Assembly (NCBI GenBank): GCA_036768485.1
Contig: JAVLUZ010000157.1
Location: forward strand, 8,457,474-8,521,473
Source of the DNA: Mermis nigrescens
Taxonomy: Eukaryota; Nematoda; Enoplea; Mermithida; Mermithidae
DNA: 64,000 nt
Reading direction: 5' to 3'
The number at the start of each line of letters is the position of its first letter. Position 1 is the first letter of the stretch. Made by a program: the position numbers and the translations under genes. Below are positions 1,095 to 60,033 of the stretch, piece after piece. The notes beneath the pieces were generated by a model that was not told where the DNA came from, ran no database searches, and saw only the letters and a program-made list of their open reading frames with translations.

Positions 1095-24719
<23,625 letters not shown>

Positions 24720-25103
24720 ACGTAGTTTTTCCAAATTTACTCGTCGTTCTCGTGTTTCTCACGTTTTTTATCATTCGTCTATTTTTTATTTATTTTTATC
24801 TGTACATAGTGCACAATTTTCTATTCCATTTATATCGCGTTAATTTCAAGTCAAAAAGGTGCTGAGACGTAGTTTAAATGGCATTGAGAGGCGCTTAAAC
24901 TTTGAAATTTGCCTAAAACTAAAGTCACGAGGTTTTTGTTAGAAAATTCAAGCTATCCATAAATGTAACCGTTATTTAGCTTATGCCGAAAAATCTTCTT
25001 TCGCTTCAGGGGCGCTATTCCAAATCTATCCGTGTGCTTGTTTACATACTCGCACATGTCTCATAGCAAGCGCGTTAGCGCGTACCTATAATATACTTGG
25101 ACC

Positions 25104-25355
25104 CATACCTGGGCGTGGGGGTATGCACCCCCACCGAGAAACCAAAATACCCCCGAAATCAGAATACCCCCAGAATTCAATTTTTGAAATTTTTTTGTTT
25201 TTTTCTCGCAATTTTTTGATGCCAATGGATAGTGCTCGATGAGAAACGTTGAAAAATGATGTGTTTTTCGCCCAACCACCATTTTTAGGGTCATTTTTTG
25301 ACCTTTGAAAAAATCTTGCACCCCCAGAACTTTGGAGCCGCCCAGCCCACCTATG
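25104..25355. mobile_element. Family 1 MITE, first of a back-to-back pair
   Basis: Starts CATACCTGGGCGTGGGGG and ends CCAGCCCACCTATG. It is flanked by CTTGGACC at 25096-25103 and 25356-25363. The core GATAGTGCTCGATGAGAAAC is intact. Confidence 0.85.
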
Positions 25356-25363
25356 CTTGGACC

Positions 25364-25752
25364 CATACCTGGGCAATGGCTGACGGTTCGCCCCGTCCAA
25401 CTTCCAGCCAAAAGGGTGGGTGGGTCCCTAGACACTGAAAAAGGTGGGTCTGTCCCTGAAAAAAGGTGGTTCCGTGCCTGAAAAAGGTAGGTCGTTCGGC
25501 ATAATCCGTGGGTCAGTCACTGAAAAAAGGTGGGTCCATCCATGAAAAAGGTGCCGAACAGTATAATAAGATGGTTCCTGTGCATGTTTTGCAAACTGAT
25601 CATGATATACTGTATCTGGCATTTCCTTAAATTATCTCCAAAAATTTTCTCCCTGTACAAAAAAACCCCATCCAAGTCACCCCTTCGCCCCGTCCAACTT
25701 TTGATTCGGCCCGTCCTGGTGATGGGCTGATATAGGGCATCGCCAAGGTAGG
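25364..25752. mobile_element. MITE of another family, second of the pair
   Basis: Starts CATACCTGGGCAATGG and ends CATCGCCAAGGTAGG, which are inverted relatives. It is flanked by CTTGGACC at 25356-25363 and 25753-25760. Inside, CTGAAAAAGGTGGGTC-like units repeat five times between 25432 and 25555. Confidence 0.75.
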
Positions 25753-26929
25753 CTTGGACCCCCCTAAAAAGTGACTCCACCTATAGCTATGACGGGACTC
25801 TTCTATATTGTGCGGTTTTTTTAACGATAGATAATAAAAAATTCGATGTAGCTATTTTTTCGCATTTCTACCCTGCGTGTAAAGTAAAGGCTTTACTGGA
25901 ACGGTATAACGTATACTTATTTCAAATTTTGGTCAGCGACACGACTTATCAAATTCAGTTTTGCATTCTGTGTCGTTTGATTTTTTCAATGTAGACAATT
26001 TTATTGAGCTCGATGGCACTTTTTTAATTTTTTGCGAATTGACATATTTCCAGAGTGACAGTGTAAAGAGTGTAAAGAATCTGAGGGTAAAAAACACATT
26101 TTAGTAGAGTTTGCGTTTTGTTTATGGCTGCCAAATTCTTTGTATAAGAGTCCCTTAAAAGCCTATCTATAGGAATGTACTAGGGTTCAAGGTCTACCTT
26201 TGGTTTACCTGCAAACTTTCTTGCACTTAAAGCGGAGTTAGATCTAGGGGTTCAAACATTACACTCTAGTGGATGGTGTTAAAATCGAATTTTGTTTAAA
26301 ATTTTTCTGCCAACTTTTCCGCTTATAAGTTGGCAGTAATCGAGTGGAATAAAAATAAAGCCCGATCTAATGGCTAAACGTCGCAGCAAATCGCGTTAAA
26401 AAAACTAAATATTGAGTTATTTATGGCTGTGTAAAGTTCAAAATCAGGGGTGTAAATGGGCGAAAAAACACGTTTTTCTCTCTATTTTGATTGTTAAATA
26501 TCTCAAATATTTTGCGGAACAGAAGTTTTGCACATAAAAAGTACTACGATTCAACAAATTGGCCAAAACCGAATTTTTTTATGCGAAGTTAGGTTCATAT
26601 TTTTAAAATTTACAATGTGGTGAATGTGTTGGATGATGGAAAAATACGTTGTTGCCACTTTTTTGTCCGCCCTTTTCTCCGTTTATAAGTCGGAACAAGT
26701 CGAATAGAATAAAAATAAAGTACATAAAGTACTTTTTAAAGAATACACTTCACAGCAAATTGCGTTCATTTACGTCAATATTGTGCTTTTTCGGTAGGTG
26801 CAAAGTCAAAAATTGGGTGTTAAACGTGTTTCTGTGTTGTTTTTTCTGCCAACTTCTCCGCTCATGAGTGGTCATGACCTCAAGTCTAAATATGTACCAA
26901 GAATCGAACGTAATATGCTAGTTGTGCGC

Positions 26930-28622: not shown

Positions 28623-30990
28623 AGGCCCTGCTATACTTCCCGCCACGCGGCGCCGCGTTGACAAAATGTGCTGCTATACTTCCACGCGGCACCGCGCGGC
28701 ACCGCGCGGCACCGCGCGGCGCCGCGTGGAAGTATAGCAGCACTCGCCCTGTGGCGCCACGCGGCGCCGCGCGGCGCCGCGTGGCAGATAAATTCAAGTT
28801 TGAACACTGTTCAAACTTTTGCCACGCGGTGGGACGCGGCGGCCTATATTTATCATGTATTTATGAGGGAAAGCTTGATTTTAGCATTTTTTATGATGTA
28901 CTGATGTTTATGCATACGTGAAAGCGTGAAAATTGAATATATAATCGATTTTTAAGATGTCTGTGTTAGTGTTATTTTGGTAGCTCAAAAATAATTAAAA
29001 TATGATATTGGTATAATTAGCTTAATTTTAGTATGATACAAATATGATATTTCGCAATTGTTTATTTGAAATATGATATATTTTTGATATTTGGTATAAA
29101 TTTAATATATTTTTGGTAGGTAGTGGGTTGGGTGGGTAGGTAGTGCATATGTATACCTATTATCTATTTTCTGCAACCATTTCAAAGTAGGTATCTATGT
29201 AAGCAAAATAGTTGGGGAATTAAATGCATGCATATCAATGCACTGTAATAAATTATGCATATTTTAAGACTCGTTTATTTTATTTCAAAGTCAAAAGACT
29301 AATTATGTAAGTGATCAATATTTTTTTGAATGATGATCTCACATTTCCAACGATTTTTCACTTAATCGGAAGCAACAATTACAATGTTATGCATAGCAAT
29401 GAATAAACATAGCTAGTTTGTGTTACAGTAAGCTACCTAGAAACAAATTTTGTACCTGCTCACTAATTGTATAAAATTGATTTTAGTGCACAAGGTTTTC
29501 TGAAAAAACTATAGAAAAACACGAGCATTAAATTTTTAGACTTAATTTCGAAAAATTTTCATTTATTCAAAAACTTTCAAAATTTACAAGATTAAGTTTC
29601 AAAATTGCTTGAATTGCTTTCACTTTTCAACAAATAACAAAATTTTGGAATATTTGGATCACTATCAGGGAAGCTCAACTCTCAAGAATACAGGTGGCAA
29701 ACAAGGATTGAGAAAACAAATAATTTAATGATCATTATTCCTACCTACATACCTACCTAATGTTTTGTAATCTCCCAGTCTGTTTCACACAAGTTTGGGC
29801 ATAAATTTTAAAAACAATGTCAAACAACAAATTGACAGATTGCGAGTATAGCAATGATTTGATATATAATTATCGTAATCCGTCGGCTTATTTATGAATA
29901 ACTTTTTAAAAAATTATGCTCAAACTCATGTGAAACAGACTATAAGCCAACTTTAATGATGAGCTCAGCTCACCATTTATTACTTATTTATCAACACAGA
30001 TAGGTGTTACTTCACTCATACTACACAACGCTAATTGTACGTAAGTACATCTTAGGTGGGCGGCTCCAAAGTTCTGGGGGGTGCAAGTTTTTTTCAAAGG
30101 TAAAAAATGGCCTTAAAATGGTGGTACGGCAAAAAAACACGATTTTCCAACGTTTCACATCGAGCAATATCCATTGGCATCAAAAAATTGCGAAAAACAC
30201 AAAAACGTTTCAAAAATTGAAATTCTCTTGGGGGTATTTCGGTTTCTGGGGGTGCATTTCCCCAAAACCCTCTCCCCAACGCCCAATGAAGGACACACAA
30301 ATAACGTAGGAGTATACAAACCTCAACGGACTATATGTATGAGAGGGCTTGGCTCGGTATGCATATGTACATCCATACTTACTTATTTGTCTCCATATGA
30401 TAATACAACCTGTGGAAAATACCTACTGCATCATACGTACAAAAGAAGTAAGTAAGATAAAGAGCAAAGAAAAAGGAAAAGTGCTCCCACTTTATACTAA
30501 AATTATACCAAAATTATATCGGAAATATTTTCACATTTCCCAGAGTTTTAATATGATAAGAATATGATATTCCGAAATTCACAGAATTAAAATATGATAT
30601 TGATAGTCCAGCAAGTGCCTACCAAAATCGTACCAAAATTTATTTTTGGTGTATCAAAATAACACTGTGTGCGAAAATATGTGTCTATGCCTTTCAAAAC
30701 TTGTTTGCATGATGCTGAAACCGGAAATGAGTACAGTTTTCAATGTGCACAATCGTTGACCTATACCCTTTTCACTTGTTTTCTTGACACAGAATACAGT
30801 ATACAGTTTACACATGTTTTACTTTTTGCTGTTTTACTGCAATTACAAGATCAATAAATTTTTTCTGCCGCGCGGCGCCGCGTGGAAGTATAGCAGCACA
30901 ACCCATGTCACGCGGCGCCGCGTTGAAAGTATAGCAGCTATTTGCCACGCGGCACCACGCGGCGCCGCGCGGCGAAGTATAGCAGGGCCT
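28623..30990. mobile_element. PIF/Harbinger-like element, TSD TAA
   Basis: Perfect 17-bp ends AGGCCCTGCTATACTTC and GAAGTATAGCAGGGCCT, flanked by TAA on both sides (28620-28622 and 30991-30993). Near each end, GCGCGGCGCCGCG blocks alternate with GAAGTATAGCAGC. The AT-rich middle has its own AGTGTTATTTTG...CAAAATAACACT ends (about 28971-30672), perhaps a nested element, and contains a family 1 copy. No transposase seen. Confidence 0.75.
30050..30287. mobile_element. Family 1 MITE nested in the PIF-like element
   Basis: GGTGGGCGGCTCCAAAGTTC at one end and CAACGCCCAATG at the other, core CATCGAGCAATATCCATTGG. No duplication was seen. Confidence 0.65.
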
Positions 30991-33524: not shown

Positions 33525-33738
33525 TACACACATGTAACCGCTCAAAATTGTGGGCAGGGGTCTCCGGCCATTTTTACGGGGGAAGGATAAACGACCTCCA
33601 ATTTTAGGGCGAAAATGGCCAAAAAACGCAGGTTTTCTCCATAATCGAGGTGGGAGGTCAAAAATTTTCTGACTTGAGGGTTGTGAAGACGACCAACTTT
33701 GAGTAGAAGGATCCCCCATCCCACTGTTACATGTATGC
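33525..33738. mobile_element. Family 2 MITE
   Basis: Ends CACATGTAACCG and CTGTTACATGTATG are inverted. Blocks TCTCCGGCCATTTTTACGG and GGCCAAAAAACGCAGG are typical. Confidence 0.6.
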
Positions 33739-35438: not shown

Positions 35439-38400
35439 CTTTTTTGTAAAAAACGTGTTCAGCAGTTGGGATAAGGGAAGGGGGTGAAATTTAAAAGTGC
35501 CTTCTTAGGGCTAAAAAATAGTAGGTATGCGTCAAAAACACCCTCCGTTTTTGGCGTTTCTGACCATGCTCTAGCTTTCCTAGGGCATACAAATACAAAA
35601 AACTTCGAACTAAATTAAAGTCGAACAAATTTAACAAGATATAGTCAAACATGCAGCATATGGTGCGAAGCGCCGAAAATTTGACGCTTTTGAGCAAATG
35701 TTTAGCTTAAACGGTTAAAAAAGCGCGTTTTTTTGCGAATTTTCAGGAAATTTTTTGGAAACTTGTGAAAAATCGAGAATTCTGGGAAGGGTGAAAAAAT
35801 TTCCGTGAGAGGAGGCTTAAAATTTTTCTGGGGTGGCGAAACCGCTCCCCAGCAAGGTCATGTATGATAAGCACCATACATGCATGCATAGAATGGGAAT
35901 TTTCAGAGGGGAGAAGAAACCGAAATTTTTTAAAGTGTCTTTTTGGGCTCAAAAGCGGTGTATATGCGTCAAAAACATCATTTTTGACGTTTATGACGAT
36001 GCTCTAACTTTCTAGAATAAACAGAACAAAATATAGTCAAGATTTTGAGTAATTTTCGTTAAGTATCGTCAAAATAGCAAGTTTTTACAATCTGGCGAAA
36101 TTTTATCTCACATCTGTTTCAACGAAACTTAATGATTTCTTTTTTCTTAGCCTTAAATCTGAAAATTTTCAAAATCGTCAATTTTAAGCTCATATTCGAT
36201 AAGACTCGCCCTTTCTGTTACCAAATGTGACGTCAAAAATTAACGAGTTTCAAGTTTAAAGTGCAATTTTTAATATTCTGACGTCTAAGAAAACGTTAAA
36301 ATTGACTATTTTTCAAGAATCAATTCAAAGCCGATTTAAAACACTAAGAATTTAAAAATTGTAAATATGTAAGTTCGATTCTAAAAAACAAATTACGTTT
36401 GGAAGCTATTTTAATTAAGCTCAGCTCGAAAAATGGCCTCTACATCGAAAATCCATCTTAGAGGGCCAATATTTTAGAGGAAAAATATCCCATTAAACTA
36501 TTTTTGCAAATCTAAGAGCCTGCATAATGGAAGTACGTAAAGCGTCAAAATAAAAAACTGACATCTATAAAAAATTTAGGTAATCAACATCGAGCGGCGC
36601 ACCGTCGTACAACATATTTTCATACTTTTTTACGTTTTTACATATGTATTTTGCATATTTATCAGGCATATTTTATTATTTATTTTATTTTATATATTAT
36701 TATACAATATCACTATTATAGTCACATTATTATTTATAATAATAATAATAATAATAATTATTATTATTATATTATTCTATATATCTGTATAGATCTATTT
36801 TATAAATATATAGTTAAATAATAGATTTTATCGCCAAATTGTACTTTGAAGCCCAACAAGGGCGGCCGGGAGCATCCAGTGACAAATTTAAGTAATTTGC
36901 GCTTCGACTCATCCGAAAATTCGCTAATCACCCTCCAAAACATGCCTACAACGTCGTCGCTCGATTCACCTGAAAATTCGACCAGCTATCATCGCAAAGG
37001 CTTGGGACATAAATTAATTTTATGAAGACTTTAAATTCGTCAAATTTTGATTTTAATGGGAAATTTTAAAAAATCTGCTCAAAATTAAAATTAGGTGAAA
37101 ACCCATTCGAACGGATCATTCATTCACTGCAAATACCAGGATGTCTTTATAACTTTGCCTGAAATATGAGAGTATTTATAGTATATTGGCTATAGGCCTA
37201 TTCATAACAGAAAGAATGATACGGGGCGGACGTCAGATTCTTATTGAAGAATAGACAAGAAGGCTAATTTTTTATACCGAAAAGTGAAAGTATTGGAAAA
37301 ATTGAAAATTTGATAAATTCGAAACATATTTAAATATCGAAAAATATTAAAAAAGGAAAAAAGCTCACTGACTTTACATACGTTTATTATTTTATAGCCG
37401 AAAATAAAGAATTGTGAATATGTAACGTTAGTTGCTTTACATTTATAGCTTTTACAATTCATCGTCATTCGTCTACCCTTTAAACGTAGATTGTTGTTTG
37501 AAATAAATTATCTGTACCCATATATGAACAAGTACCTCAAATTTACCTATTCATTTTTTAAAATTCTTTATTTTCATAACGTTTTCTTTATTTTTTCCGA
37601 CCATGCCTGATTAATTAAGTGACTCATTCATTTCTATTTACATTATACTTGTATACAATGCGAAATATACCTACCTGCGTATTTTGTATGGTTCCTTAAG
37701 TCATTTATGTCAAGCATTCTATCGTCGCCCGAAATAATCATCTGTAATTCTCTAGGATCGAACATCTGCAACCAGTCCAGATCGATAAGTTCGGAAAGAC
37801 CATTGCAAAATGCTATTATCTGGTCTCTGATTTGAACAAAGTTTATATCAAATTAAATTATTCTATTGTACTATTATCAGATAAACAGAACCATACCTGG
37901 GCGTGGGGGCTTGAGGGGTATGCACCACCAGAAACCGAAATACCACCCCCTAGAATTCAATTAATTTTTTTGTTTTTTTTGGTTGCCGCCACACCTGGGC
38001 GTAGGGGGGGTTTCGGGGGTATGCACCACCAGAAACCAAAATACCACCCCCTAGAAACCAAAATACTCCCCCAGAATTCAATTTTTGAAAAAATTTTTTC
38101 GTTTTTTTTGCAATTTTTTGATGCCAATGGATAGTGCTCGATGAGAAACGTCGAAAAATGGTGTTTTTATTGTCCAACCCACCATTTTTAAGGCCATTTT
38201 TGACCTTTCGAAAAATCTTGCACCCCCAGAATTTTTGCTGCCCACGAATTTGGTTGCCGCCCACCTATAAAGAGAACACGTTATTTATGTTTTATGAATA
38301 AAATGCAGGAGGAAGACAGCGAATATTGAAGACAAAAATTAAGGCCTAACAATTTAGGCAGCTGAATTAACTACATAATTATTTATTAGATTCTGACTAA

Positions 38401-41400
38401 CAAATCATTATTTATACTTTTACATATATGTGACCTTATTTTGTTTGACATACTTACTTCATTTATGAAACTAGCCAGCTTTGTGGATATTGTAAATCAT
38501 AAAAAGGCGCGGCAATTTAAAATATTACAGCATACAACGAACTAGAATGAGATTTAAAAGAAGAACATATGTAAATACAAATGCGAAAAACAAAAAGGGA
38601 ACATAAATTCATACAAATGCAATAAATGTGATGAAATGTCGATTAAACGAACAGGAAGATGATAACCTGCTTTACTGTATTCACTTAAGAAATAAAGTAA
38701 TCAAAGTGAATGATTAATTATTAGAAATTACCATTTTAAAATTAGTTTAAATTTTCATTTCCCTTCGTCTTTCCCAAGTTATTCCATAAGCCTACTCATC
38801 GTTATCAGCCTAATTAATCGATTCAGAAACCAGTGAATCGAAAGGTAAACCGAAAGAAATATACCAATAACAGACGATCACACCTAGGCGTCCGTCGGGA
38901 AGGGGTTTTGGAGGGTATGCACCCCCACCCCCGAGAAAACAAACCACCCCCGAGAAACCCAAATACCCTCAAAAATTCAATTTTCGAAATATTTTGTGTT
39001 TTTTTCGCAATTTTTTGATGCCAATTGATAGTGCTCGATGAGAAACGTCGAAAAATAGTGTTTTTCGCCATACCACCATTTTTAAGGCTATTTTTTGACC
39101 TTTAAAAAATGTTGCATCCCCACCCCCAGAATTTTGGAGCCGCCCACCTATGTATGCAGACGATACGATATGCACATGACAAAAACGGCAATAATTATCA
39201 CAGAAAAATATATTATACACGTATATTGATAATTGAGTTGAAAAGCTAGTCACGCAACCTTATTACTAAACATGAAATTTACTTGAGTATCGAGGTAAAA
39301 ATTGGTCACTAGCTGCACATATTCCAATTTATTTTCATTAGTCACCCGAATTTCTCGACCGTTAGGCTTTAGATCGACGGTCTACAATGTGAACAACAAA
39401 AAATGAATCGCCATATAAATCGGCGTTAAAAATTAAAAATCTACAAAAAAACGTCTCGTGCAATTTACTTGTATAATGTACATGTAAGAAACAGATCGAA
39501 TGAGGCTTAGGTAAATTTTTGGGAATCTTTTTTGAGATTATTAAAAGCCTTGCTAATCGAAAAAAATTAAAAAGGATCAAGCCAGTAGAGAAGTTTTAAA
39601 TGTTTCCCGAAAAGGATCAAGCCAGTTGGGAAATTCAACATTTTTCCCCGAATATGTGAAGAGCATAAGTGCAATGAGCAGATTGGTGAAGACGAGTGAA
39701 ATCTATATTTTGCGGTAAAGGAGGAGCAAAATCCGATATTTTAGCCATGTAAGTCGCGTTTCTAATCTATGTACCATTAAAACATAACTAAATAAAAATT
39801 CCTTTTTGGTCCACATCTATCAATGCATTGGACCTTCTAGATGAGGACGAAAAATTCCTATATTTCCTTCTCACCGGCGCTATAAATTGTCAGCCGTGAA
39901 TGTAGCGTTTTCGGAGATTACTCGTTAAAGCTGACTTCCAAAAATTGTAATTTTTCTTCAAGAAATCTGTGAAAATTATAAGTAAAAAGCTCGAAGGCTC
40001 AAAACTGCATTTCGAAAGGGTTCCAACGAGATTTCAATAAAAACGGATGAAATTGTTATGCAATGTACATACCTTAGTCCAAATAAATCTTCGAAATGCG
40101 CACTCGGGATCATTGGATACTAATAATGATTCTATCATTCATAAAACTTTAGGTCAGTGTACTGCAGTATTTGTAAAAATTTGAGCGTAAGTTCAGGCAA
40201 TTCTCTTCAATTGCGTACCAGTTAGATCATATAAATAAATTTTTTGAATGTCTCCCTGAAAATTTTAGCATTTTTAATTTGATTTCAAATTTTAAATTCT
40301 ATCACGTGCTCAAGCTCGCTTTAGTTATTTACTATCGTATGTAGCTTATATACCTTTATCTCACCAAACTCGTCCACAGTAAGTGAAAAATCAAGTTGCA
40401 AATCCGACACATCGGCAGAGCGCGATTTTATCCAAAGTAAGTTTCTAAAAAAATAACTTTTCGACAAGAACGCCAAAGCACTCGATGACAAAGACTTACA
40501 GAAAACGATTCGTTTTATGCTACGAACAAAACGTAATGTTTATGGCAAAGTTGAAAAAGGTTAAAAATATTAAGAAACGGAAAAGTAAGAAAAACTTAAA
40601 TAGTTCTAAAGCCTCAAGTCTAAAACGGCTAAAAATAATTTCTTACGAGAAACAAAATTCTTTTATAAGAGCTATGTACATAAGTTACGATTAGATTGAT
40701 GTGCGCAACAAATTACAACTGCCCCAGCACTCTAAATATCTAATATTTAATAATTAATGATAAATATAATAATACATACTTATAATAGTAATATTAATAT
40801 TCATTATCAAAATAGTAAATAAATACATATGTAGATAACTTACGTCGACGAAAAATAGTTAACCCCTGCCACACATGCATACGGGGGGTATGGGTTGGTA
40901 TCCCCCTACCCGGACTTTCGGAAGGCATACCCCCTCAGGCCGTTTTGGGGCCAAGTCTAGTGCTTGAACCATGAAAAAGTGTCAAATGACGTCTAATCGT
41001 ATCGAGCATTAGAATGTTTATTTGTTCATTCAAACATTTTTCTTCCATTATTTTGTATATATTTGACGATATAGGTCATTTAATTGTCTTTACCCTTATT
41101 TGTTTTCATGCAAATTTAGCCAACAATATTAATAAAGAATAAAATACGACGAATTAAGTATAAAAATTTGACATTAAATAAGTAAAAAATTACTCACTTA
41201 CCCCCTCCCCAAGATAACTTGGTTTAACCCCTCCCGGAACTTTTGACCCCTGCCGCATAATAGCTTTCAGTGCTAAACATGAAAATTTTTCCGCCACAAA
41301 TTTTATTGACAGAAAAATTTCCGTTGACGCTTTATGTATGCTTTTTCTCCAATTCGTAATCAAGGATGCAATTTTTTCGTAATTTTTTCAAGCTCAACTA

Positions 41401-44400
41401 TAGAAAAACCGTCCTTTTTAGTTAATGGTCTTAAAAAATAGTTGAATTGATTAAAAAAGGCTAAAATGGAGGGATACCTATTCACAACAGTGTTTTTGTA
41501 CAAGGTCCCTTTGTGCATGAACAAATACGGTCTCCAAAAGTCTTTGTGCACTTTGTACATGCAAATTTTTGTGCACTATATGGTACAGTAGCGATTTTAG
41601 TGGGATGAAACAGGGTTTTTCGACCTTTGATAGTGTATTTTAGCTGAACTCTGGGTTTCTGACGCCAAAAATCACTAAAAATTGTCTTAAAACGGCGCAA
41701 CGCGCCGAAAAATTTGACAATTTCATATTCTAAATGCAAATTCTGCCGTTATAAAGATATATAAGACGGACGATTACTCATTTCAGCGCGAAGCGCCGAA
41801 AAGTTCTGGGAATTCTACACCTTCTTACAGTTTTTATTTCTCCAAAAATCTTTGCACAAGTACAAAGACGGTCCGAAAAGTCTTTGTACATCGGGAAAAA
41901 ATCTTTGCCGAAAACAAAAGAAACCGTGATTCACAATAAGATTTTCGAATGTTAGCATAATTGCTCGATCACTAATAGAGCAAAGCACAGTCATTAGAAG
42001 AGTAATCGATTTTCATTCATGTAATATCGACTTAAGGAGACACATAAATTTATGAAAATTTTATAATTTAATTGCCTAAAATAAGATTTTGTCAAATAAG
42101 ACCTAGTTATAAGCAAGTTTTAGCCGAATTCAGTCATGGTGGTCATGGTGCGATTCGAAAAAAATTAATGCGGATTTAATGGATAAAATAATCCGAAAGT
42201 CCCAGACACACAAAACCTTGCTAGCTATATTCTTAAAATTGCAGTAACGGATAAGAAAAGAAGTCAGCTACACATAAACCGAATATAAACGATAAAGAAA
42301 TTTGCTATGCAGCGATAAAATTTCGGCAAGAAGTACACATTTCCAAATAAAATTTAGGCATAATCTCATCGGTCGTCATCAGACGGACATTGAATGAGAA
42401 ATCTGGGGTTAAACCAAAAAAGTTTTTAAATTGCTTGTTGGGCTCAAAACGGATGGGTGTGCGGCTCAAAACAGCACCTTTTCTAAGATTTTTTTTGGTT
42501 TTTTTTGAAAATCGAAATTTCTGGAGATTCAAAAATTTTAGAGGAGGGGATGAAATCCATTTTTGGAGGGATGAAAACCATACGACCCCCTCCCGGGTCA
42601 GGTATGGCTGTCATCACTCATCGTGACAATGCCTAAAATGTTTTAGACTACGTAAACTGAATCGTATTACTCACTTGTATAACACAGGGTCAAATGATTC
42701 CAAATGACGTATTTCTACGTTATGCGATTCGTAAGTTAACAATCGACTAAGGAAAAATTGCGCTAACGGCAATTCAGCTAGCTGATTTTCGAATATTAAC
42801 TAGAAAAACGAGCTCAAATTAGTTTTGCATCACTTAACAATTACAAATTATTAAAACTACAGGCATTTCTGTTGAATGTCAAGTATAAATGTGCAATTGA
42901 CAAAGTGAGCGTCCTCCAGTTAAAAAGTATTTAGAAACCTGACATCAGAATTAGGCAAAAAAAGGTAGAACCTGTATTTAGAACCCGATCTTCAAATCGC
43001 ATTACACATATCTACTCAGGGCCGTATTTAAGGAAGGCGGGAACGGCCGGGCCGCTCTCACCTTTGGCCGAAAAAAAATTTTGAAAGGAAAGATGGAAAC
43101 ATCGCATGTTCATCGAATTTTTGGCGCTTCGCGCCAGATGTGCAGTATTTTCCATAATTCTGGCTCAAGCGCAGCCTAAGAACGACAATTTTCATAGCGT
43201 TTCGATTTGGAAATTTTTTTCTAAAAGTTCGAATTCTATGAGCTCAATGGATAGGAGCATGTCGGAAAACGTAGAAAAAAGCGGTTTTTACGAACTATCC
43301 CGACGAATTTGCCGAGATATAGACCAATTTATGTTGGGTCCGCCCCCCTACCCCCTTAGCCGGATCCTAGATACGGACCTACATCTACTCATACATGATA
43401 TATACACTCTCATTCTCATATTATACACGATGAGGCAACAAATGAAAAGTTTTCTGAGGGAATTTATAATTTTTAACATTGTCCAAGCTCGTACAATAAC
43501 TTAAATAAATACTGAGACTCAGGAAAACTCGACCAACTATAGCTTTACGATGGTCGAAAGCCAAAAAGAGCATTTAACTGGTCATATTTCACTTTAGTGA
43601 TCCGTGCTTAAAACTCAATTCCGCAATAACGTGAGGATTAATCATTCAACAATGCCCATAATCCCCTTACAGAAAATCTCTATATCCTCATCACATCCTT
43701 TACCTTGTAAAGAAAGAATTACATACATAGCACTTATTGACTTCCCGATTTCGCTCAAGATCATAATTTTTTCCTGCGAAAGTGAGATAACATTTACCTA
43801 CTTTACATTATGTATTAGTTATTTAAATTAGTATTTATTTAAGAATAATTATTTATACACAAATGATTATTTTAATAAATTTAATAGAAGAAACTTTCAC
43901 ATGTAATGCACCTAATGGGCACAGTTAATCGTAAATTTGCGTACTTTTCCAAGCACACGACCCAAAAAATGAAAATGACGTCGAAAATCCGGATAAATTA
44001 AGCGACTCAATGGGTTAGGATAGAGCTGATTGTCGTGTGTACTTGTAAAAAGGCCTCTTTCGGGACTGAAGCCAGCTTTAAGCAATTCGCTAATGAATTC
44101 CCTTGAACAAGAGGACAATAATCGAGGAATTGCATTGTAGAGTATAATTGTGCAGTTATATTGTAACAACATTTATATAATTACATCACAACACAATCAA
44201 TTATATTATAACTATTAACTAACAATTATATACTTGATTACAATTATATTGTAAAAGAGTGTACGGATGTAGAATTGCTTTGTGTTTTCGTGCCATCATT
44301 AATCATACACGCGGTTTTAAGCAGAAACAAAATTTTCGTAACTACTTTTATTTGTTTACCTGAAAGATATTATTGAAAGACTAAATTCTGGAAAAAATTG

Positions 44401-47400
44401 AACATCTTTGTGTAAAGTATGTAATTGTAGTAAATAATGCGCATAACGCGACCGTCTTTCAAGTCAATTTTTACCCTCAAATGTCAAGACAAGAACATAT
44501 TTTCCGATATTTTTAGTTATTTTACTTGCAATCTTTAATGGATGACTCAACGTGGGCGTGCGGCGGGAAGGGGTGGGGGTATGCACCCTTAGAAGGCCGA
44601 TACCCCCTAGAATTCAATTTTTAAATTTCTCGCGATTTTTTTATGCCAATGAATAGTGTTCGATGAGAAAGGTTGAAAAATGGTGTTTTTCGCCATATTA
44701 CCATTTTTAAGACCATTTTTGACCTTTTTGGTGCAGCCCTACTATGATGTCAACGAGTTATTCGACATGAACCGAAAAATCCTTAAAAACGCCCTGATAT
44801 GAGCGTACATAGCGAACTATCATTCGAAAAGCGCCAGTTTTTCGGCCAATCAGTTTTGAAAATATTAGTATTTTGTTTAATTTTATTGAATTTCTCTTGA
44901 TATTCTTCTATGTCTTTATCACGTAGAAAGAAAGAGCATCGTCAAAAACGTCAAAGAAATCAATATTTCTGAGTTTTGACGCGTATCATTCGTTGTTGAG
45001 TACAAAAAAGACATCTCAGAAAATTCTCCAGTTTCACACCCATAATTTCCACGCTGTGCATTGAAAAACCTATATATCGAGATACCAATGTCTTCTATAC
45101 TGAGCAAAGGTTTTAAATAAGCAATGCATATGTTTGTAAATAATTAAACAAGTAAAAAGAGGAGAATCAAAGATAGCGCGTTGGCGCGTGCCTATAATAT
45201 ATTTGGGTACCCCAAACATATATCCACCCCCTCTACAGCTCTAACGGGACATATCTAGTACATGCGGTTTTTTAATCAATAGATAACCAGAAAAGATCAT
45301 GCAACTTTTTGCTTTTGTTTACACTCAATACCGAGTGTGAAATGAGCGTGTAAAGTTTTGGCATAACGTAATAACATATAAAAACTTTTGACGGTTGTCG
45401 AGAATAGACAACTCAGCATAAACGCCTCATATACTCGTAAATTAATTATAGAATTGTAGATAATAAAATTCTCTAAAAACGGTATTTTTTGTTTTTTTGA
45501 CTTTTGCATTAGTTCTTGAGGGGGCGTAAAAAGTGTAAAAATCTGCGCGTGTAAAGACAGATTTCGGACGTGTTTTTGTCTTCTTTCTATCAGCCAACAA
45601 ATCCGGTTGAGTCCCAAAAAAATTTTTCTGATTAAAATTAGAGCTGTGCCGGGGCCAATGTTAGAGTCGATTATAATGTAGAAACTTGATAATGTTTTGG
45701 GCAGATTTACCTTCAAACTCAATTTCAAGCAAACCACAGATCTTGCTAATTCAAATCTTTATTTCACTATGTCAGATTGGTGCGAACTTCTAGTTAATAA
45801 TCAAAATTGACATATTTTAAATTGCAATTCATATAGACGAGCATTTCCAGCTTGCTTGGTAGCAGACAGCTACGTCTATCAGAACAAATAGAATAATAAG
45901 CCTAAAAAAAGTGCAAAGTAAAGCACATTGAGAAACGCATCCAAGTCAGAGGAGTTAAATCCATACATGGGCAGCTCAAAAATTCTAGGGGGTCCAATTT
46001 TTCAAAGTCAAAAAGTGCCTGATAATATATGGTAGAGCGAAAAAAACACAGTTTTCTCGCGTTTCTCAATGAGAGCTATCCATTAGCATCAAAAAACCGC
46101 AGAAAAACAGAAAAAATTTTGAAAATCAAATTCTGGGGGGTCTAGCGGATTTTTTTTTGGGGGGAGAATAAGAATTCTGGGGGTCTAGATCCCCCGATGC
46201 CCATGTTCTGTTATATCTTGTAATCCCAACAAATATTAACGCTTGACGTGCATATCTACAAGCAAGAATATATGCATAGGTACATATAAGGGGTAGGGCA
46301 GGGTCGTACTATAAGCATGGTAAAGCACGCTATTATTGGCCCCGGCCAGGCCCCGGCCCCGGCCCCGGCACCGGGGCCTAGGCCCCGGCCCCGGCAAAAA
46401 AGGTGGCCCCGGCACAGCTCTAATTAAAATGTACTAGGACTCAATGGCTACTTTCCGCTTACCAGCGAACTTTTTTACACACCATACCGAGTTAGATATA
46501 GGGGATTAAAATTCACGCTCTAGTGGATATTGTAAAAAAACTAGTTTTGTATCAGTGCAACCAGGTGCAACCCGGTACCAGCTAGAGAAGGTCCGGTACC
46601 AGCTAGAAGGTCTGCCAGTTGCACCTGATGATATGAGTAAATAACAAGTAATCACACACGCACACGCACACAAACACATGCAATCCGATAGAACCATCAC
46701 TCAAAATCTAGTGTACAATTCTAAATAAGCTTTATGACCAACCACTTTTACAACTAAGCAACCAACCAAAAAATTCGGTCTTGGGTACCAGCTGGGGCAA
46801 TTGATATTGCCCAGCTCTCAATACCGCGTTTGTAATGAGCGTGTAAAGTTGTGGCGTAACGTATAGCAAACTTTGGTTGTTTTTTACACGACTTGTGAAC
46901 AACTCAGTATTAACGCCACAAACAATTTAATGGTTTTAAATTGTAGAGAAGGAATGCTACAGATAACACTTTTTTGTATTTTGAATTTCGCATCAGTTCT
47001 CAAATTTGAGTGTAAAGAGTGTGAGAATCTGGGGGTGAAAAAACATTTTGGTCGAGTTTTCGACTTGTTTATGTCTGACAACAACTCTGGTTATGAGCAT
47101 AAAGGATCTCAAGGGTTGGAGAGGTTGTTTCAACCCCCCCCCCACAAAAATTTTCACTCCCCCAGAATTGGCGATTTTTTTAAAGTTCCCAAAAATTTTC
47201 TAAAATTTTCTTAGCTATCTGTTTGCTCACAAGCGCCAAATTTTCGGCATTTCGCGCCATTATATTCATGTTTTGACTATATTTTTTTCAATTTGTTCAG
47301 AATTTTTTGATTTTTTTCGATGTTTTTGACGCGTACCTACAATTTTTGGACCCAAAAAAGGCACTTTATAATTTCACCCCACCCTCCAGAATTCCGAAGC

Positions 47401-50400
47401 TATGCATGCATGGTTATGAGCAAACGTGTAACAGGGGGATGGGGATCCCACCGCCTAAAGTCGGTTTCTAGGCGTTTTTTGGACGTTTTCGATCAAAAGT
47501 TGTAGGTCATTTATCCCCTCTGAACATGGCCGGAACCCCCACCCCTAATTTCAAGCCGTTACATGCATGGTTATGAGTCCCAAGAAATTGTTTTTGATAG
47601 AAATGTACTACGGCTTAAGGGCTACTTTGTGCATACCAATAAACTCAATACGGAGTTAGATAAAGGGGTTTAAACTTTACACGCTAGTGGATGGTGCAAA
47701 AAACAAGTTTTGTTTTAGATATATCCGCCAACTTCTCCGGTAATATATTGAATAAAATATAAATAAAGCACCTTCTAAGGGCTACAAGTCGCAGCAAACC
47801 GCGGGGTGAAAAGTTCGAAATCAGGAGTGTATAATGAGCGAAAAAACACGTTTTTCCCCATTTTAATTAGTAAATATCTCAAATATTTTGCGGAACAGAA
47901 GTTTTCCACATTCGAACGTACTACGATTCAAAGGCTACAAACTGGCCCAAACCAAATTCCTTTACACTCAATGTGGAGTTAGGTTCAGCTTTTGAAAGAT
48001 TTTCAGTGTGGTGGATGGTAGAAAATACGTTTTTGTCCGTTTTTTGTTCACCACTTTCTCTGTTTAGAAATAAGAAAAAATAAAAAACTTTCTAAGGGGT
48101 ACACGTCACAGCAAATTGTGTTTATTTAAACCAATATTTAGCTTTTTCGGGAGATGTAAAGTCCAAAATTGGGTGTGTTAAACGTGTTTCTGACTTGTTT
48201 TTTTCTGCCAACTTCTCCGGTTATGAGTCTGAACATGCTCTCACGTCTGAAAATGTACCATGAATCAAACGTGTTACGCCAGTTGGGCGCATTTGTTTAC
48301 ACTCAACAGTGGTGTAAAATTGTTTACATCTAATATTTATACTTTACACTGCAAATTAACTTTCGTTCTAGAGTCTTACGAAAGCTCAATTCATTTTCAA
48401 AATGTTCTACGTGACATCAGAATTTCGAATCTGACTGTTAGTTTTCTTTACACCCACTTGTTGTGCTAGGTTTACACTATTCATTTATTGTTAATGAGTA
48501 GTTTACACTACAAATTTATTTTACTTTCAGAACGTTGCAAAATGTGAATTTTTTCAAAATATGTTCCCTAAGGTCAGGATTACGAATCTGACTGCACGTT
48601 TTCTTTACACCCAGTGGTTATGCAAAATTACACTGCAAATTAACTTTAGTTCTAGAACCCTACGGAAGCTTAATTTTTTTGAAAATGTTCTACGCAACGT
48701 CAGAATTAAGAATCTGGTAGTTAGTATTTCTCTGCACCCGATATTTGTGCAAAGTTTGTACTATTCATATATTGTTAATGTGTTAAGTTTACACTACAAA
48801 TTTATTTTACTTCCAGAGCGTTGCAAAACGTGAATTTAATAAAATATGTTCCGTAAGGTCAGGATTAGGAATCTGACTGCATGTTTTCTTTACACCCAGT
48901 AGCTGTGTAAAGTTTAAACTTAAAATTAAGTTTTGTTTCTGAACATTGCAGAAGCTTGATTTTTTCAAAATAATCCATGTAACGTCAGAATTACGAATCT
49001 GAGTGTAAGTCTTCTTTACACCCAGTAGTTGTGTAAAGTTTATGCGAATTATTTGATGTTTTAATACAGTTAGGTTGTCTTGTTTAGGAAAGATAATGCT
49101 GATGTTCAAAAACTGTTTTCCGCGTTCTTGGACAGCTGTCATAATTATGGCATATAACCATGTGTGTTTACTGACTGATTTACTCAAATCATGCTAATTA
49201 GAAGTAGGGTACTAGAAAAAAATGCTCCGATGGAACAAAAAGGACGAATATACTTGGGATTACGGATTATTAAGGATGTGAAAGGGGAGACTAGGAAAAT
49301 GCTCCCATGTGAGTGCCTAAAGTCGCAAAACCTGTTAAAAATCAGACTGCCTCTAAGCAACGCAAAAAATTGAAGTATATCCTGCGGCCTCTAAAAAAAT
49401 GTAACCTTCTTTAAATAATTTTCAATGCTTCACATAAGAGCGTATAAACATAATCTAAAATGTATACTTTTGTAAATTGCTTGCAAGTTGCAACGCTGAC
49501 TTGCTTCGTATAGCGACTGATAGAAAACTAAGTGCAATAGACTACATATTTAAAGGTTTTGAAAAATGAGCTTGCTGAGCGAGAGTTGTAAACTAAGAGG
49601 AGCTTAAAGTTTAAACCGACCATTAAATTATAAAGATAATAATAAAAGATTTAAAGCTTTAGGAAAAAGGTAAATTAAAACAAATTTAGAGGATATGATG
49701 AAACATTATTGTTAAGAATGGGACGATCACGTGCTATGTATAATGACTCCTTGATTAAAAGATCAAAAGAGTTGGATGCTCGACTGATAACCTTGAAGCA
49801 ATCTGACGTAATTGCATGATTGCTATTGCTATTCACACACATATCTCAAATAGCAATCATCCAATTACATCAGATTGCTTCAATGTTATCAGTCGAGCAT
49901 CCAACTCTTTTGATCTTTTAATCAAGGAGTCATTATACATAGCATGTGATCGTCCCATTCTCAACAATAATGTTTCATCATATCCTCTAAATTTGTTTTA
50001 ATTTACCACATTTTTCTTTTTCTTAAAGCTTTAAATCTTTTATTATTATTATCTTTATAATTTAATGGTAGGTTTAAACTTTAAGCTCCTCTTAGTTTAC
50101 AACTCTCGCTTAGCTAGCTCATTTTTTCAAAACTATTCTTTCATGATCAGTCGCTTTTATATTTAGAGGTGTTTTATTTTGTTACCATGAGCATTATAGC
50201 AAGCAAATCTGGCGTCAATTGATTAGTGCACACAATCGTTGCAGGCATGCAAATGTACCTAAATGTAGTCTGTTTCACGTTAGCTTACGTGTTTCCTACT
50301 GCTTTGAACCAACAATTTCTCTGATTGTCTAGAATGCATAGATGTTTGATATTTCATTCAATTGACTTACAAAGTTACTCCTGCTCTACTCCATCTACTT

Positions 50401-54100: not shown

Positions 54101-57100
54101 ACGATAAATTCGGCGCGAAGCACCGGAAAATTCTAAGTTTACTAGCTCAAACGTACGTTAAAAACCTGTTTTGGTGGTGTTTTGAGTCTACTTCAAGAAT
54201 TTTTCTTTTTTTCTTACTTTGGGAACCCTTATGTATTTCAAAAATTATTTTTCATTTCCGGGGTAAGGGAACCGCCTCGACCCCCCTGAATACGGACCTG
54301 ATCGTGCCACATACCTATAAATAAGCATTAGTACAGTAAGAAAATACTGGAAAAAAGGAAACAATGTAACAACAAATTCGCAGTTTTAAAGTCACCCATA
54401 TAGCAGTAATTCTAGGAGTGAGCAAGACTCTAGGCTGTTAACCAACTTGTTGTTCGAAACTATTTGAAAGCTCAAAAGCTAAGTTTTTTGAAGATGGAAA
54501 TAATATCTGGACGACAAATAAAGCTTCGACCCGTCCAAGTTTTGGCTCTAAAACACGATCCCCTAAAACTCAAGTGGTCTAAAACTGGGTGAGGTAATTT
54601 GATCCGATTCTCAGTGATAGCCTGTCCTACGACTGGACTGGCATGGGATATTGCAGAGCTTTGATGGAACCATACATGATCTGGGGTTTCATTCCCCCCG
54701 GAAAATTTTCAGCCTCCTCCAGACGTCTTATTGGGGGGTTTGACCCCCTCACAGAATGGTAACTGATTCCCCGCAAAATGACTGCGACCCCCCTAAATTG
54801 TCGATTTTTTTTGTAAAAGTTGGTAAAAGTTGCAAAAAGTGTGCCGTTTTAAGCATGCACATATATTTTGACTATATTTTGTTCAATTTACTCCTCAATT
54901 TTTTAAAATTTTTCTGGAATTTTTTTACGTTTTTATGTTTTAAAAAGAACAAGCTTTATCTGAAACGTCAAAAAACAGTGTTTTGACGTGTACCCTTCGT
55001 TTTTTAGCCCAAAAAAGACACTTTTCAAAAATTTCTTGGGCCTGACCCCCCCAGAATTCCCATGCTGTACATATATGGCCCCCTCCCCGGAAATTTTTTA
55101 TCCCTCACCTCCCAAATTTTTTCACCTCCACACAGAATTAAGGATTTTCCGAAAAATTCCAAAAAGTTTGTGAAAGAAGCTGTTTTAAGCGTTTTTAGCT
55201 ATCTTTTTGCTCAAAAGCGTATACTCATTTTGACTATTTTTTTAAAAAAATTTTTAAAATATTTTTATGCTTTAGAAAGATACAGCGCACGGCAAGTAAC
55301 GAACGTTTGAGACTATTGCGAGGGAAGGTTTTTTCTATTATTTTTTCTAAAAGCGATGCATGTTCACACGTAAATTAGAGAAATTTCGATTAAGATAAAA
55401 GAGAAGCACAGATGAACCTTAATTTTTCACAAAAAAATGCCACAAATAACAACTTAAAAAATATACCCAAAATTTAGACTTAGCAGGAAAAATTGATTTT
55501 AAAATTATATGTTATACGCTTAACCGAACAAAAATTAGACGGCCGTTTTTCCCAAAATCGAAAATTCCGAAAACGTATAATGTCTGAATAGTGAACGAAT
55601 AATAATCTTAATTGTTGACACTAAATTCAGGGTAAAACGTTATTTTTGACTGCAAATCGGAATTTGTGAAAAGTCTATAGAACTGTAAAGGTAACTCTTT
55701 CGAAAATAATGACAAAGAAGAGTCCTAAATTGTCGTATATGGGGAAACATGTATAATCTCGAAATTAGTCGTTATCCCCAAAATTGAAACAGTGGTAGGA
55801 ATCACATATGTACAGAGTTGGTTTGAAGAACAGTCAAAGAAGTCTTTTTATGCAAAAAACTGGTATAAAGTGCTAAATTAGCGTTAAAACCAGGTTAATT
55901 TAAATTGTTTGGTTAATTTCGATCACTTTCTGAGAATTTTTGATTTTTATTTATTTTGGCCATCATTTTGTCTCATTTTTCCAAGAAAATTTTCTCTAAC
56001 CCTCACGCGCATATCTGGTGAAAATCCAAGATTTTCAGATTGGAACAGATGTATGGGTGAATGCATACATGTAAGAGTAACGGGGTTGGAGATCACCCCA
56101 CCCAAAGTTAGTCGTCCCCAAAGCCAAAAAATTTTGACCGCCCCCTTTTTGGAAAGAAATGAATTTTCGGCCTTTTTTAGGCGATTTTAGCCGAAAATTA
56201 AAGGTCATTTACCCACCTCTAGTGATCGACCGGGGCGACTTTTTTGGCCGGGGCCGGGCGGTACCGGGGCTGGAAACAAATCCCCGGCCCCGGCCCGCGG
56301 CCGGGGCCGGGGCCGGGGCTGGCCGGGGTCAGACAAGGAAAATATTATTGCATGACACATACTTGGGGTGGGAGGCATAGGAAAGAAATAATGAGCGATT
56401 GCTCCATTCAGTAGTAAATGGCTTTTCATATCAAGTTTTATTACTATTTATGTCACAAAAAAACAAATTTAGTCTAGTGTTTCATTGTCTGAATCATCAA
56501 TAAGGTCTATGTCGCTGCTATTAGCACACTCTGTATCATTCGAATCTTAGCTACGGCTACTGCTGCTGTAGCAATTGGATGCAATAGGTATTGGATGTAA
56601 TAAATGAGACATCACACATTCCCATATGGGGGAGGGGTATTACCCCTCAGGGTCCAAGACACAAGTCACTGTCAGACGATTTTTGGTGAAAACCTCTTGA
56701 ATTTTTTGAACTTAATTTTTTAGTATGGCTAAAGTGTACCTAACTATTAGAATTTCACGAAGTGATACATTATTTTATTATGTGAGCTAGAGTAAATAGA
56801 TAAACTATCACTATAAAACATGCATGTAATCGCTTAAAATTTTATGAGGTTCCCTCAGTATACCTACATGTAACGGCTGGAAATCTAGGGTAGGGGTCCC
56901 GCGCCATTTTTAGAAGGAGGGAGTTAGCGACTAGATCAAAAATGGTAAAAACACATAAAAATAGCCAAAAAAGCACAGGCTTTCGCCAAAAAATGGGGGA
57001 GGGTGGTTAAATATTTTCTGACTTTCAAGGAAGTTCGGGGCTTCAAAGCGGAGATGGGGGATGGCCCAAATCCTCTGTCACATGTATATTCCTCGGCTAT

Positions 57101-60033
57101 TTTCAGGGGAAGGGGGGTAAGCGGCTCCATTTTTGCAGCCGCTTACCCCCCCTTTGAAAATCTTTAAAATGGTAGAATTTCCAATAAGGAATTCTACACC
57201 TTTTTACAGTTTTTGTTCTTCAAAAATCTTTGTACATGTACAAAGACGGTCCTGAAACGTCTATGTACATCAGCAAAAATCTTCCCCGAATACAAAAAGA
57301 CCGTGCTTCTAAATGTGATAATTCGTTCGGCCTGAATTTAGTTGATAGTTCGGCGCGAAGTGCCGAAATTTTTATGAGCTTCTGATGGAATTCACACATA
57401 AAACTCGACTGAGAAAGCTAAAACAACTTGTACTACAAAAATGAGAAATATTACAAAAATTGTAATATGCGAATTAAATCTTGTAATAAGCAACACTGCG
57501 CTTAGAATGGAAAAATGGAAAAATGTCAAATATTCAGGAACCCAAAAATTAGCCAAATACACTACTAAAGGTCGAAAAACTATGTTCTACTACCACACTG
57601 AAATCGTTAATGTACCATATTAAAGTATACAAAAATTTGCATATACAAAAGAGTGTTTTTTGTATTCGCCAAAGATTTTTCCCGATGTACAAAGACCAGG
57701 ACTATCTTTGTACATGAACAAAGATTTTTGGGAAGATAAAAACTGTAAAAAGGTATAAAATTCCAAAAATTTTTCGGCATTCCCCTCCGATATGATAAAT
57801 TGTCTGTCCTATACATCTTTTAAATGGCAAAATTTAAATTTAGAATGCAGAAATGTCAAATTTTTAGGCGCTTCGCGCCGTTTTGATACAATTTTAGTAA
57901 TTCTTGGCGTTAGAAACTCAGAAATTAGCTAAAATATACAATTAAAAGTCAAAAGACCCTGTTTTGCCACTAATTTTCTGGTCCTCCAATTTGGGATTTC
58001 ACCCCTCCCTCAACTCTGGACCCTAGGAAACTATTTGAGACATATTTAGTTTATCGGATCGGACGCGATTCTGCAGCATAGTTTATATTCGCCTATAATT
58101 AACCTCGGTCCTAATAACTATTACACAGGAAACGCGTTTTAAAGCACACGGTTCCCATTCAAATGAATGTAAAAGTGTTTTTTGTAGAAATAGTTTGTTA
58201 AAAACGTACAATTTCTAACTAGAAATAGAACGTATTTGTCAACTCTAAATCTTTTAGCCATAGCTATGAATGAATGAGTTAAAAGTAGCATTTAGTTTAA
58301 ATAAGTTAAGTGGAGGAATCGAAAATATGCAGATTTTCCTGAACATTCATTCATTAAAAGCTCATTTATACACAGTAGAAAACTTATGACAAGGACTAAG
58401 TAAGTATACATATGGTCTAATCAGTACAGTTCTCAAAATTAACACTTGCTCATTGATAAATAAGTGCCAGTATCACAGCCTGTACAAAATACGAATTACA
58501 CTAAATTTTTCCCCGGCCCCGGCCATTTTTTGACCTTGCCCCGGCCGGGGCCGGGGATGCTGAAAAATGGCCGGGGATTGCCGGGGCCGGGGCCGGGGCC
58601 CCGGTCGATCACTACCCACCTCCCCTCCTTAAAATAGCCGGGGACCTCAACCCGAAAATTTCGAGCCGTTCCATGTATGGCTGAATGTGTACGTAAACAT
58701 ATAAGATAGAAATGAGTCAGTCGGAGATTACAATTCTCCTGCGATTAGCGCTGTTGGCACAGGATCGAATCGGACAGAAAATAAAAATAAAAGTTCAATT
58801 AGGATGTTAAATAGAGCAAGAGTCCTTCTCATTGTGGAAAAAAGTCAAGGCGCAATAAAAAGGCAAGAAAGCAAAAATATTACATTACCGTAACGCGTTC
58901 TTCGAATGGGATGAGAAATGGAACTTTTCTCAAAACTGTCATTGTTCTTAGATCTTCCAACGATAAGCCCTGTTTTTCTTGTTCTACAAAAATATTCGAG
59001 AATAAAAGTATTACAAAAAAAGATCTTACACATACATATTCGTGAATGGACGTTGATAAAATATATCAACTGTACACACGTGTAAAAGCGTACATACATG
59101 AGCGCAGCGTTTTTTTGTACAAGGTCCGTTTGTATATGTAAAAATATGGTCCCCAAAAGTCTTTGTACATTTTGTACAAAAAAATTTTGGGTACTATAAT
59201 ATGGTACAGTAGCGATTTTGGTATGGCAAAAACAGAGTTGTTCGACTTTTGGTAGTGTATTTCAGCTAATTTCTGGGTCTCTAAGGGCAAAAATCACTAA
59301 GAATCGTCTTCAATTACTCATTTCGGCGCGAAGCGCCGAAAATTTTTGCGAATTTCAGACCTTTATTGCAATTTTTGTATTCTAAAGAATCTTTATACAT
59401 TTACAAAGACGGTCCCGGAGAGTCTTTGTACATCGGGAAAATCTTTGCCGGGTACAGAAAAACCGTGCATGAGCGAAATTCAAATTCTGGGGTCTAAAAA
59501 CTTTCAAGTCGAAAAGTGACGAAAATTGATGTTAGGACCAATAGAAGCAATAAACCTATTTTTTATTTTCCGACCTTTCACATCAATCTCCATGGGCATA
59601 GAAAAATTGCGAAAAAAATAAGATCAATTTAAAAAGTTTATTTCAGGAAAGTCTAAGCTCAAGAAGGATAAGTTTAATTTTGAATCGAATTAATTGTTAA
59701 TTTTGGCCGACTACTAAAAATCATCAACGAGATTCAAGAATGAAGAATGATTTTCATATAAGTAAGTAAGGAGACTATTGCGAAAAAATAAATAGCTTGC
59801 GGGATTTTCCATATTGCTACGTATTGCTACAAGCTGTACTGTAATAATACCGTATGTTGTAGTATATTCGCAAGACTTGCTGAAATAATATTGTTGAATA
59901 TATAAATAGACTAAAGAGTGCATTAATTAATTAATGAATTATAAATGAATAACGATTGATAATGAATAATAACATAATAATAATTATAATAATTATAATA
60001 ATAATAATAATAATTATTATTATTATGATAATA

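Follow-up and report, generated by a model that had tools for sequence, protein, structure and literature searches.

Two unlike miniature elements and three copies of one octamer in Mermis nigrescens: probable serial insertion into a single target

The locus at 47090 and its closest parallels

In Drosophila singed-weak, two defective P elements lie together at one target. Fly transposable elements commonly form dimers, for which the available extracts of a review (PMC12628747) name site preference as the main cause; the double insertion described there (McGurk and Barbash, 2018) arises when a second insertion enters the target site duplication (TSD) of the first, giving the order element-TSD-element. 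The same arrangement was found at positions 47090 to 47577 of a 64,000-nucleotide stretch of the genome of the nematode Mermis nigrescens (GCA_036768485.1, contig JAVLUZ010000157.1, 8,457,474 to 8,521,473; hereinafter the window), where two miniature inverted-repeat transposable elements (MITEs) are bordered and joined by three copies of the octamer GTTATGAG. Serial double insertion is a known kind of event, and this locus is a cross-family case: the fly elements were of the same type, whereas different MITE families are also combined here, and a locus with three elements and four octamer copies occurs elsewhere in the genome. On balance, we favor the explanation that a member of family f3 and a member of family f2, both non-autonomous P-superfamily elements, were inserted serially into the same host octamer, mainly through site preference.

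Other described systems share single traits with this locus, as far as the partial texts of the sources go. For P elements, 178 of 1,226 natural insertions were located at the exact positions of laboratory ones (PMC3276498). P-type MITEs with 8-bp TSDs and the en-bloc movement of neighboring P copies are both discussed for Anopheles (PMC1562414). The P-superfamily MITEs of Anopheles gambiae are likewise non-coding, with P-type ends and 8-bp TSDs, but the ends of the P master element measure 27 to 31 bp in that species, whereas those in the window measure about 8 to 14 bp by eye and no master was identified. In the SaTar arrays known from guayule and rice (PMC5907723), different non-autonomous elements are likewise strung together end to end; they are Mutator-like and joined by microsatellites, whereas one shared octamer joins the elements here. 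Among the open-licence papers listed, in the extracts available, no description was noticed of an octamer present three times and common to MITEs of two different families. If the favored explanation is correct, the locus would offer a clean record from nature of two unlike elements entering one octamer in series.

The three copies of GTTATGAG were confirmed by direct reading of the forward strand at 47090 to 47097, 47413 to 47420, and 47570 to 47577, as an earlier reading made from the sequence alone (the sequence-only reading) had described. An f3 MITE of 315 bp (47098 to 47412, forward strand; ends CATAAAGG.../...GCATGCATG) lies between the first two copies and an f2 MITE of 149 bp (47421 to 47569, forward strand; ends CAAACGTGTAAC.../...GTTACATGCATG) between the last two, the middle copy being common to both. 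Both elements are short, non-coding and of many-copy families, as is characteristic of MITEs, and no open reading frame (ORF) of at least 120 amino acids overlapped 47090 to 47577. This f3 copy has a weak inverted repeat (CATAAAGGATCTCA / CATGCATGCATAGC), and the boundaries of both elements were set by family members instead: f3 matches at 20020 and 35879 stop at the last base of the f3 copy, and f2 matches at 33737 and 58679 extend to the ends of the f2 copy. With the boundaries taken as fixed by these relatives, the arithmetic chance of three equal octamers is about 4^-16.

As an unfilled counterpart, the sequence-only reading had pointed to another copy of the large host repeat, at 26143 to 26150 (forward strand). 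The diverged octamer TATAAGAG is indeed followed there directly by TCCC, but a better empty site was found in an element-free paralogue at 48220 to 48227 (forward strand), which reads GGTTATGAGTC and contains GTTATGAG exactly. Because this unfilled paralogue carries GTTATGAG, the target that received the insertions very probably read GTTATGAG, rather than the diverged TATAAGAG. Another paralogue, near 45606, reads GGT--TGAGTCCC.

A third family, f1, has the ends CATACCTGGGCG and CGCCCACCTATG. The ends of the families read CATACCTG (f1) or CATACATG (f2 and f3). An 8-bp TSD with at most one mismatch was recorded in 53 rows from the fetched loci and the window (37 non-junction and 16 junction; a few are copies of one arrangement). 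In the window, 16 P-type insertions were curated by hand, and all had 8-bp TSDs with zero to two mismatches; this set left out copies with no readable duplication (among them f1 at 30053, 32475, and 44600; f2 at 14857, 17372, 33531, 56064, 56867, and 58621; f3 at 15883 and f3 dimers). The palindromised target consensus of the 37 non-junction f1 insertions was GTNNNNAC, preceded by G and followed by C. The target octamer reported for the fly P element, GTCCGGAC (PMC3276498), was itself present at one f1 locus (L059); its extended motif is ATRGTCCGGACWAT (PMC10299278).

The zebrafish P element Pdre2/THAP9 has ends CATACCTGTCAAC and an 8-bp TSD, given as AGGTGAAT (PMC10983969, in part); like f1, its end begins with CATACCTG. 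It carries a transposase-like gene, and its end agrees with the f1 end CATACCTGGGCG in the first eight letters only; CATACATG of f2 and f3 shares fewer. The target of hobo, a hAT element, is tabulated as GTNCGNAC beside the fly P motif (PMC3276498), and since the two motifs are nearly the same, the case for P comes from the ends instead of the octamers. The hAT-style duplication nTnnnnAn was also found; it is common to P elements and so not decisive. The ends of hAT elements read C/TAGNG. Membership in hAT was set aside, as CATACCTG and CATACATG are unlike that form. Judging from ends and duplications, f1, f2, and f3 are likely non-autonomous P-superfamily elements.

Recurrence of the arrangement in the genome

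The 524-Mb assembly (860 contigs) was searched for an f1 3' end and an f1 5' end separated by a gap of 0 to 30 bp, with the reversed pattern as control. This yielded 33 matches, compared with 0 in the control. The gap spectrum peaked at 8, with 15 of the 33 matches (14 of 25 distinct strings) and 14 different octamers. Gap 9 came second with eight matches, seven of which represented one repeat-borne arrangement. Sequence was retrieved for 30 of the 33 loci, including 13 of the 15 with gap 8. Both outer octamers matched the inner one with at most one mismatch in six of these 13 (L042, L046, L051, L052, L056, and L057), a single outer octamer was found in five (L037, L048, L053, L054, and L059), and neither was found in two (L043 and L049). 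L053 and L054 agree in octamer and in flanking sequence; a single locus may have been assembled twice here. At L056, three elements in mixed orientation are accompanied by four copies of GTGACGAC, and L057 has an f1 element nested within the second element. When five f1-type arrays were compared, neighboring elements were unequal in length and 76 to 92% identical in the better-fitting orientation.

A second pattern, an f2 or f3 end followed by a gap and then f2, gave 155 matches compared with 5 in its reversed control. Among the 100 of 155 matches listed, there were 87 distinct strings, 13 of them with gap 8, the mean at other gaps being 2.5. All three of the gap-8 cases that were read (L063, L087, and the 47090 locus) were triplets with outer octamers at no more than one mismatch. 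At L063, f3 and f2 stand in the order opposite to that at 47090, with the octamers GTCAGATC, GTCAGATC, and GTTAGATC.

In a blind scan of the window for octamers present three times at spacings of 80 to 900 bp, 233 triplets were obtained, of which the 47090 triplet ranked fourth by similarity of the element ends. The top rank was held by CTTGGACC at 25096, 25356, and 25753, the same triplet that the genome search returned as L046. Its three copies (25096 to 25103, 25356 to 25363, and 25753 to 25760) enclose a 252-bp f1 MITE (25104 to 25355; ends CATACCTGGGCG / CATAGGTGGGCT) and a 389-bp element (25364 to 25752; ends CATACCTGGGCAAT / CCTACCTTGGCGAT), all on the forward strand.

Full triplets with other octamers, other pairs of elements among them, were thus found at L042, L051, L052, L056, L057, L063, L087, and window positions 25096 to 25760, and the genome-wide search that the sequence-only reading had proposed bore out the recurrence of the arrangement. 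The claim of that reading that the second element entered the exact duplication of the first is supported by these triplets, by the unlike neighbors, and by the opposite order at L063.

Two further patterns were seen among the matches. A smaller second peak lay at gap 5 in the f2/f3 search (9 of the 87 distinct strings, among the 100 matches listed); L064, the sole gap-5 locus among six printed with gaps 1 to 6, contained no triplet by eye. In seven of the 33 f1 matches (L038, L040, L041, L044, L050, L058, and L060), f1 was followed by the 9-mer GTAACCAGG and a start reading CATACCTGGG, all inside a larger repeat of dispersed occurrence; L038 and L050 do not differ over 1367 bp.

Target preference, resident junctions and other explanations

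Octamer preference was estimated with two matrices. In matrix A, from 12 window insertions with both triplets (47090 and 25096) excluded, GTTATGAG was in the top 0.5% of window octamers and in the top 0.13% when scored as a 14-mer with its flanks. In matrix B, from 37 f1 insertions in the fetched loci and the window, it was among the top 0.23%, with a weight 36 times the mean; this matrix counts one repeat-borne arrangement five times, whereas the list of 33 octamers used for the excess and score tests does not. From these 33 octamers, preference alone predicted a 41-fold excess of exact f1 re-insertion (bootstrap 23 to 115), and other estimators on the 37-site matrix gave 15- to 32-fold. The observed excess of f1 gap 8 over gaps 9 to 30 was 38.5-fold (95% interval 15 to 106). 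The sequence-only reading had judged a random second hit on the same 8 bp improbable. That argument fails, because a strong octamer persists in two copies after the first insertion and can take a second one.

Under the favored explanation, each transposition would make an 8-bp staggered cut at a site resembling GTNNNNAC. The first insertion into the strong site GTTATGAG would leave two intact copies, one of which would then be cut exactly when the same transposase, or a related one, mobilized a second element. The sequence fits either f3 or f2 as the first arrival. The main cause would be site preference, possibly threshold-like instead of graded.

Several results weigh against this explanation. 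The gap-8 excess in the f2/f3 search was only about 6-fold (13 vs. 50 over 22 gaps, among the matches listed, the pattern being noisier), and CTTGGACC, twice hit in the window, is only a moderate target (3.3-fold, top 6% in the 37-site matrix). More directly, an additive octamer preference predicts that twice-hit octamers should score above once-hit ones by about 3.0 log2 units (95% interval 1.8 to 4.1), whereas the observed difference was 0.53, a value as low as which was reached in 0 of 2,000 simulations; it was 0.64 when singles were limited to perfect duplications. Several octamers of the f2/f3 gap-8 cases scored poorly. Finally, the transposase profile PF12017 of Pfam gave no matches, but none were obtained in the control genomes either. 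The score test assumes independent matrix positions, samples singles and doubles differently, and includes 14 double octamers. Two readings would fit these scores, a threshold-like preference and an attraction exerted by the junction itself; under the former, the conflict between the predicted and observed scores would disappear.

Insertion directed by the junction is a serious but less likely alternative. Here, a resident end with its duplication (ATG|N8 or N8|CAT), or a transposase bound to it, would target the octamer largely regardless of its letters. The twice-hit f1 octamers were distributed as the once-hit ones, with the difference of 0.53 within the range of an octamer-blind model (95% interval -1.7 to 1.4), and the mean score of f2/f3 gap-8 octamers was lower still (1.79, compared with 3.12 for singles). 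In addition, a single octamer received three elements at L056, nesting within another such element was labelled by hand for four of the 16 curated insertions of the window, and the ATG and CAT of the element ends are close to the outer letters of ATRGTCCGGACWAT as given in the extract of PMC10299278. On the other hand, the f1 gap-8 excess was no greater than octamer preference predicts. The letters do matter, since f2/f3 gap-8 octamers scored far above random octamers (P 9e-7), although some of these cases may be chance spacings. A general benefit of the ATG and CAT flanks was also not supported: when six junction sites were compared with the empty site in matrix A, three were well below it, one was slightly below, and two were higher. 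The support from twice-hit scores comes from the 14 double octamers only. The suggestion in the sequence-only reading that the transposase may favor a resident junction is not needed to account for the f1 rate, but simple graded preference does not predict the finding that octamers hit twice score no higher than those hit once.

The broader form of this idea, in which P-type transposases return to the junction formed by a resident element, an end beside its own duplication serving as the landing signal and the octamer letters hardly mattering, is tentative and appears rather doubtful. If true, one insertion would bring on others at the same octamer, even between families with only short ends in common, and such re-targeting would seed tandem arrays and satellites. 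The M. nigrescens genome contains enough cases to separate a hot sequence from an attractive resident end, two explanations that are easily merged; the comparison of doubly and singly hit octamers makes the question testable by a full count, and the question bears on the conversion of transposons into tandem repeats.

Movement of f3-GTTATGAG-f2 as a single composite unit is very unlikely and was rejected. A block of f1 and GTAACCAGG does recur in the f1 matches, though inside a larger repeat family. At 47090, inner and outer octamers are identical, contrary to what a composite that had moved would display, and both f2 (23933 to 24383) and f3 (20020 to 21044) occur separately with their own duplications (six and seven of eight letters equal, respectively). 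Further, the pair at L063 has the opposite order and a different octamer, and GTTATGAG was present at an f2/f3 junction only at 47090 among the 100 of 155 matches listed. The sequence-only reading had named a unit always travelling together as the outcome that would contradict serial insertion; the pair is not such a unit.

Equally improbable is an array made by tandem duplication, unequal exchange, rolling-circle or hybrid-end events. Tandem MITE arrays in coral have been ascribed to slippage (PMC2872659, in part), but the neighbors within each of the five f1-type arrays compared are unequal in length and unlike in sequence, the elements of L056 do not all point the same way, and the f3 and f2 elements at 47090 belong to different families. 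Unlike neighbors and mixed orientation indicate separate elements inserted serially, and tandem duplication was rejected on these grounds. Chance octamers or misdrawn boundaries, suggested by the weak inverted repeat of the f3 copy and the fourth rank of the 47090 triplet in the blind scan, can be practically dismissed, as relatives set the boundaries, gap 8 forms a genome-wide peak with few or no matches in the reversed controls, and the recurring full triplets already refute this explanation.

Element families and other features of the window

Besides the copy at 47098, f3 relatives were located at 20020 to 21044 (the full f3 element), 35481 to 35979, and 54690 to 55219, and a genome-wide f3 search gave at least 73 matches (best 40 of 5,672 candidates scored). 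The f1 core had no match in the viral contig and genome contig collections searched. Two f1 MITEs on the forward strand are nested in terminal repeats: one at 24120 to 24371 within the full f2 element, with the duplication GTTACATR, and one at 37990 to 38252 within another f1 (37892 to 38269), with the duplication GTTGCCGC. Within 4412 to 4737, a further f1 at 4412 to 4704 (duplication KGTATTAC) lies about 17 bp inside what appears to be the end CATAGGTGGGTG of another element. At L074, an f1 is located within an f2 interior at GTCCCCGG, a P-like octamer inside f2.

At 35867 to 35874 (reverse strand), two f3 ends are separated by the spacer GTGCTTAT, which is 8 bp long only if a 4-bp TATG extension is counted within the end. 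Outer octamers were looked for at this f3-f3 junction and none were found; GTGCTTAT is not a strong target (1.3- to 1.5-fold in the matrix of 12 window insertions). Extra TATG past the usual end, just inside the duplication, was seen at 38879 to 39156 and 35867 to 35890, and looks as though the cut can slip by four bases. G+C-rich CCGGGGCC blocks, bordered by TAGTGATCGACCGGG-type sequence, are contained in f2-type MITEs at about 56230 to 56330 and 58480 to 58580 and resemble another element family.

The DNA of the window is animal-like and contains 13 ORFs of at least 120 amino acids, ten of which were scanned against Pfam. LINE-type reverse transcriptase and endonuclease domains were identified at 7390 to 9940 (reverse strand), and an ERAP1-type peptidase was represented by pieces at 13203 and 16633, the latter below the family cut-off. 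Two related hAT-like elements (41488 to 41928 and 59105 to 59467; ends CAGTGTTTTTGT / CAGCGTTTTTTT) have perfect 8-bp duplications, ATTCACAA and CATGAGCG. In addition, a large near-perfect inverted repeat extends from 49554 to 50134, with inner arms of 159 nt that are 97% identical and 21 nt apart (49669 to 50007) and outer flanking arms of 92 nt at 93%.

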